From Acidimicrobiia bacterium (GTDB lineage: Bacteria; Actinomycetota; Acidimicrobiia; IMCC26256): a DNA stretch of 12,357 nucleotides. Below the pieces are notes generated by a model, which ran no database searches, was not told the origin of the DNA, and saw nothing but the letters and a program-made list of their open reading frames with translations. This document shows, one piece after another, positions 11,554-12,357 of this stretch (position 1 is the first letter of the stretch; every line of letters starts with the position of its first letter). The stretch is from positions 1-12,357 of the forward strand of contig JALRDW010000005.1 of the NCBI GenBank assembly GCA_023262065.1, in the 5' to 3' direction. Both the position numbers and the translations under genes were made by a program.

Positions 11554-12357
11554 ATGGCCACGCGATTCCTCGTCATCGGTGGGGGACCGGCCGGGCAGAC
11601 GGCGGCGAGCGTGGCGGCCGGGCTCGGCGCGGACGTCACGATCATCGAGCGCGACGTGCTCGGTGGCGCGGCCCACCTCTGGGACTGCGTGCCGTCGAAG
11701 GCCATGATCGCCACCGGCGGCGAACTCATGTCGCTGCTGCGCTCGGAGGACATGGGCATCGATGCGGCCGCCGGGGTCGTGGACGTCGACGCGCTGCGGG
11801 CCCGGATGCGGGGGATCCAGGACCACCTGCGCGACGCCGTCGAGACGCTGCTGGCGAGCCAGGGGGTGCGCATGCTGCGCGGCACCGGTCGGCTCGCATC
11901 GCCCACCACGGCGGTGCTGGAGCACGACGGCGGGACCGAGACGGTCGAGTTCGACGCGGTCCTCCTCTCCACCGGCTCGCGCCCGCGGGTCCCGGACTGG
12001 GTCCGACCCGACGGCGATCGCATCCTCACCACCCGCGACGCGTACCCGCCGCCAGTGGTGCCGGAGCATGTGGTCGTGGTCGGCTCCGGGGTCACCGGCG
12101 TGGAGTTCGCACACATGTTCACGACGTTCGGGGCCCGGGTGAGCCTCGTCGTCTCGCGTCAGCAGGTCCTGCCGACGAAGGACCCCGAGGTCGCAGCCAC
12201 GCTCGAGGACTCGTTCCTCCGCAACGTTGAACTCGAGTTCGAGCGCAACCAGGAGCGGTATCAATTCTTGCGCTGTGGTCAGCAGGCGTTCTCGAACTTC
12301 CGCGTCGTCCCGCCCGGCACCGGCATCGTGCACCAGGTGAACCTTGAATACCTGGCG
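11554..12357 (+). CDS. Flavoprotein disulfide-reductase-like NAD(P)H oxidoreductase (LpdA-like), truncated and joined in frame to aconitase sequence
   Basis: The frame is open from ATG 11554 to the window edge (268 codons). Residues 1 to about 220 are an FAD/NAD(P)-linked reductase: FAD motif RFLVIGGGPAGQTAASVAAG (4-23) with Glu32 nearby, GGAAHLWDCVPSKAMIATGG, STGSRPRVPDW, and the NAD(P) Rossmann motif VVVVGSGVTGVEFAHMF (173-189). The redox-disulfide position has only Cys45; the first Cys is Ala40. This resembles mycobacterial LpdA, which I recall as a quinone reductase lacking dihydrolipoamide activity. From about residue 221 the frame becomes AcnA-type aconitase, so the reductase lacks the rest of its NAD(P) domain, the central domain and the dimerisation domain. 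The product as read cannot be a working reductase. The start follows a TACGCT box by 6 bases. Identity of the first part is sure; whether the join exists in a genome is doubtful. Confidence 0.85.
   Translation, partial: MATRFLVIGGGPAGQTAASVAAGLGADVTIIERDVLGGAAHLWDCVPSKAMIATGGELMSLLRSEDMGIDAAAGVVDVDALRARMRGIQDHLRDAVETLLASQGVRMLRGTGRLASPTTAVLEHDGGTETVEFDAVLLSTGSRPRVPDWVRPDGDRILTTRDAYPPPVVPEHVVVVGSGVTGVEFAHMFTTFGARVSLVVSRQQVLPTKDPEVAATLEDSFLRNVELEFERNQERYQFLRCGQQAFSNFRVVPPGTGIVHQVNLEYLA
12215..12357 (+). pseudogene. acnA: Internal fragment of aconitate hydratase (AcnA type)
   Basis: Aconitase interconverts citrate and isocitrate in the TCA cycle. Reading in the same frame as the upstream flavoprotein, codons about 224-268 give NVELEFERN, NQERYQFLRCGQQAF and VVPPGTGIVHQVNLEYLA, hallmark sequence of the N-terminal Fe-S domain of AcnA/IRP-type aconitases (roughly residues 140-190 of about 900, from memory). 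The aconitase start, promoter and first 130-150 residues are absent, and the sequence continues past the window edge. Cys241 replaces the Trp normally found in the LRWGQ motif, a TGG-to-TGT change. A/T-ending codons (GTT, GAA, TAT, CAA, TGT, GGT, CTT, GAA) make up 8 of 44 here against 3 of the preceding 45, hinting at a different source. The exact join cannot be fixed; it lies near 12210-12226. Confidence 0.85.

Follow-up and report, generated by a model that had tools for sequence, protein, structure and literature searches.

The stretch of DNA analysed here (the window) comprises contig C284 in full (12357 bases), one of the 300 contigs of a 2.10-Mb genome bin that is estimated to be 79% complete. 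At positions 11554 to 12357 on the plus strand it carries an open frame of 268 amino acids that runs up to the window end, which is also the contig end. Based on Pfam and NCBIfam models we found that the identity of this frame switches, with an LpdA-like flavoprotein reductase encoded at 11554 to 12219 and AcnA aconitase sequence from 12220 to the window end. The first part comprises the 5' 222 codons of an LpdA-like NAD(P)H-quinone dehydrogenase or dihydrolipoyl dehydrogenase-like flavoprotein, and the Pyr_redox_2 domain was detected at residues 5-232 of the window frame (E 9e-36). The second part (12220 to 12357, plus strand) holds 46 codons of an internal AcnA piece, and the Aconitase domain was detected in the 49-amino-acid tail alone (E 4.4e-12). 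The in-frame join of a reductase to an aconitase that had been described in a preliminary description is therefore present in the sequence. Its position had been given as about 12215, and this had to be corrected: the overlap with a second contig of the bin, C195, places the break at 12219/12220, base 12219 being the last one in common with the true gene on C195. The break lies 138 bases from the contig end.

Searching the bin with positions 11554 to 12357 returned the window itself, two short weak matches and an exact match of 37 bases (12183 to 12219) on C195, where it occupies the extreme end of this 11009-base contig (11009-10973, minus strand). C195 carries the reductase frame on to a stop codon, over 243 amino acids of which 12 belong to the overlap, giving an expected full length of 222 + 243 - 12 = 453 amino acids. 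The C195 piece supplies what the window part lacks, namely the dimerisation domain and the last portion of Pyr_redox_2. G003, a genome of the same genus that consists of a single contig, has an intact orthologue of 456 amino acids; the window head corresponds to residues 1-221 of this orthologue (74% identity) and the C195 piece to its residues 210-456 (83% identity). Pyr_redox_2 followed by Pyr_redox_dim is found in the G003 protein, and the same two domains are divided between the window and C195 in the bin. Of the two further genomes of the genus that were searched, G001 also has the reductase gene intact, and G002 gave only a 31% match. The nearest database protein among those listed (P0129, 453 amino acids) was 92% and 93% identical to the two pieces. 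Both pieces were matched by all 120 listed relatives of the G003 protein, which are the best 120 of 8000 scored with a full-length query, a search that favours full-length proteins. Eight of the listed relatives name an organism, and these are Actinomycetota (P0129, the nearest), Acidimicrobiia or Acidimicrobiales. Of the two redox cysteines usual in such proteins, the first is an alanine in the window reductase (GGAAHLWDC), which we take to be a feature of the LpdA protein Rv3303c as well.

The gene order shows C284 and C195 to be neighbours. C192, C284 (positions 8 to 12215) and the reversed C195 form a single colinear run on 40 kb of G003 as determined with blastn, with approximately 10.8 kb of C195 following directly after the genes of the window, and the bases of C284 after 12219 do not fit into the G003 gene order. 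The three contigs of the bin are thereby shown to belong together. The other end of the window is correctly placed: its positions 1 to 135 overlap the end of C192 (3593-3727) with 134 of 135 bases identical, that is, with one mismatch. Both ends of C284 were left unjoined by the assembler although the neighbour contigs are present in the bin. A fixed assembly word length was considered as the cause of the 37-base overlap and rejected: C284 overlaps C192 by 135 bases, one of them mismatched, nothing else matched the far end of C195, and no common length emerges. Within C192 (L125), positions 370-855 and 1892-3103 match one and the same place in G003, which suggests, from the alignment, related neighbouring genes; a second G003 copy may be located just outside the compared 40 kb.

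The tail matched aconitase-type models only, with AcnA best (TIGR01341 / NF006757), which agrees with its earlier reading as aconitase rather than as a reductase C-terminal domain. In the NCBIfam AcnA models it aligns to positions 143-190 of a profile of 888 (E 2.6e-22) and to positions 126-172 of one of 876 (E 7.4e-22), and as a fragment of 49 residues it scores 76.9 bits against a TIGR01341 cut-off of 945. The matching segment starts at residue 145-151 from the first methionine in four full-length frames from relatives, the frame of a fifth (L025) being left out of this figure for want of a usable start. The N-terminal length missing from the tail is thus about 120-150 residues, and the 130-150 residues estimated before were about right. 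Both proteins are incomplete, as had been stated: the rest of the reductase lies on C195, and the tail is an internal piece of AcnA.

The composition of the tail also differs from that of the reductase part, with a GC content of 60.9% compared to 72.8%. Stretches of 138 bases as GC-poor as the tail make up 0.12% of the remaining window and 0.53% of C195. The shift towards A/T-ending codons that had been noted exists (8 of 46 codons in the tail, 15 of 222 in the reductase), but it is weak (Fisher p = 0.037). The replacement of a conserved tryptophan by cysteine was confirmed: the codon at 12274 is TGT, where TGG was found in 87 of 87 aconitase loci, and among 120 listed proteins the position is W in 119 and C in one. 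A single-base error in a thinly covered contig end would be the simplest reading of this change.

We then considered where the tail might come from. A second copy of 12220-12357 was not found in the 79%-complete bin, and at this completeness the absence of an AcnA gene there is no proof. The aconitase family is represented in the bin by C65, C290 and this tail, and the sole other protein match to the tail in the bin, on C290, has 42% identity. In G003 the family was found in two places, in frames of 496 and 765 amino acids; neither has the length of AcnA, and they are probably an isopropylmalate dehydratase and another aconitase type. Recombination with an aconitase of the organism itself was therefore rejected, since the C290 match reaches just 42% identity to the tail and G003 has no frame of AcnA length. 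The bin's other aconitase-family gene (L126, C290 12961-13819) itself lies near a contig end, the match covering 12961-13695 of 13819 bases, and several aconitase-family matches in G001 and G002 likewise begin at contig ends. At the DNA level the best identity to the tail was 83.3% over 138 bases among the 80 named loci of 585 confirmed; these 80 belong to Alphaproteobacteria, Actinomycetota, Planctomycetaceae, Kofleriaceae and others, with no clear winner. The closest protein among the matches listed was P0001 (90%), and the best of the named ones were from Tepidiformaceae, Tepidiforma and Dehalococcoidia (84-88%), with Pirellulaceae, Sphingomonadales and Pseudomonadota at up to 86%, in a search in which a length limit left full-length aconitases out as candidates. 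The tail probably stems from another bacterium.

At the break, the true gene contains a perfect inverted repeat with arms of 14 bases and a loop of 5, located within the reductase coding sequence. The window holds the left arm (12196-12209), the loop (12210-12214) and the first five bases of the right arm, so that the feature extends from 12196 to 12219 and the break falls 5 bases into the right arm; the remainder is on C195 (L005, 10972-10964). It is the sole inverted repeat with arms of at least 12 bases (loop 3-12) in the window or in C195, scanned separately, and the predicted fold has -39.4 kcal/mol for the true sequence and -17.8 kcal/mol for the window version. The repeat was not seen in the reductase genes of G003 and G001 when the sequences were compared by eye, and its presence in this reductase is probably due to chance or local. 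Additionally, we compared the reductase with 86 aconitase loci, keeping the register of the join. In L036, L028 and L059 the longest runs in common were 9, 11 and 14 bases, respectively, and in these three loci the shared run ends at 12216-12217. The mean shared run was 4.2 bases, compared to 3.3 at in-frame shifted positions, and 71 of the 86 loci share at most 5 bases in register, which is the 95th percentile of the shifted control. One locus, L012, was excluded from the 86 because its ungapped alignment had only 46% identity; it was included in the 87-locus tryptophan count, in which matches were placed by their first 100 bases only. Judged from these runs, the two genes may share a useful match at the join.

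Taken together, we regard it as almost certain from these comparisons that the last 138 bases of C284 are a chimeric contig end, an artefact of assembly and not a gene fusion. This reading is favoured because C195 overlaps the reductase by 37 exact bases, completes the gene and adjoins it in the gene order, and the same overlap and the G003 gene order support misassembly at a contig end, which had been the first choice of the preliminary description. Against it count the weakness of the codon shift, the few native stretches that are equally GC-poor, the best DNA identity to the tail of 83.3% among the named loci, the 71 of 86 loci whose match at the join stays at the control level, and the inverted repeat not being seen in G003 and G001. 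The switch at 12219/12220 into the AcnA gene of another organism in the sample would have come about through a chimeric read or an incorrect path of the assembler. Tentatively, and at somewhat less than even odds, the hairpin combined with a short stretch common to both genes (such as GAGGACTCGTTC) might have caused the switch, either in library preparation or in assembly. Such a match, lying in the same codon register in both genes, would have kept the frame open by chance; if the source aconitase contained one, it would account for the switch being possible as well as for the frame that resulted.

The search for the same join elsewhere bears on the alternatives to this artefact. With the DNA query, no match spanning the junction was found in 40 relatives: nine of them match the query, three over 26-38 bases only and the other six over 122-152 bases with 72-80% identity, starting no earlier than 12208. 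At the protein level, no reductase Pfam domain together with an aconitase domain was found in the 120 listed of 6891 matches, the candidates having lengths of 0.55-1.75 x 268 amino acids, which covers fusions of up to about 469. Seven listed protein hits align from region residue 25 or earlier, well before the junction, and in the four that were inspected the sequence on either side of it is aconitase. One alternative is a real recombination scar: in a minority of the cells the reductase gene would have been interrupted at the hairpin and fused, in frame, with an aconitase fragment of foreign origin, and both forms would have been assembled. This could explain that C195 and the tail both follow the same 37 bases in the assembly, and the inverted repeat lies at the very break. 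However, the tail stops after 138 bases at the contig end with no further AcnA in the bin, the tryptophan-to-cysteine change and the lower GC content fit a thin foreign end, and none of the 40 relatives has a junction-spanning match. We consider such a scar very improbable.

Extremely improbable is an error on the other side, with C195 being a chimera or a binning contaminant and the continuation in the window being right, because C195 extends the same protein family in frame (residues 210-456 of the orthologue at 83%) and its colinear run of approximately 10.8 kb on G003 comes right after the genes of the window. A functional reductase-aconitase fusion protein, which had been called very unlikely before and has nothing but the open frame across the join in its favour, has a practically negligible probability, as the reductase would lack its dimerisation domain and the last part of its NAD(P) half, which are located on C195, the aconitase part would be without its first 120-150 residues or so, and no second example was found in the sets searched (40 relatives; 120 listed of 6891 proteins, up to about 469 amino acids).

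The chimeric contig end illustrates that a false join can stay in frame by chance, and that a gene caller would then report a plausible two-domain protein. As a caution only, checking contig ends against overlapping contigs of the same bin removes such cases.

In comparison with known systems, the LpdA / NAD(P)H-quinone dehydrogenase model NF005883 was the best NCBIfam model for both pieces, which scored 214.1 and 245.2 bits when taken apart, and for the intact G003 orthologue, which differs in scoring below the curated cut-off of the model (446.8 compared to 479 bits). The best solved structure by sequence was that of LpdA (1xdi, Rv3303c-lpdA; E 1.2e-87). Judged by these matches, the gene behind the join belongs to an actinobacterium and encodes an ordinary LpdA-like reductase, not a certified LpdA member. 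The tail resembles AcnA (TIGR01341 / NF006757) by its model match and differs from it as a 46-codon fragment with cysteine for the conserved tryptophan. For the switch itself, passages of PMC8674242 describe chimeric reads that arise from hairpins and, at end repair, from microhomology and mis-annealed single strands in formalin-fixed human samples. The hairpin at the switch and the presence of the true continuation on an overlapping contig are alike; the samples in those passages are not metagenomes, and a comparable chimera-making step is what we infer here. With the chimeric contig ends and reads of short-read assembly, the end of C284 shares the abrupt switch between unrelated genes at a contig end.
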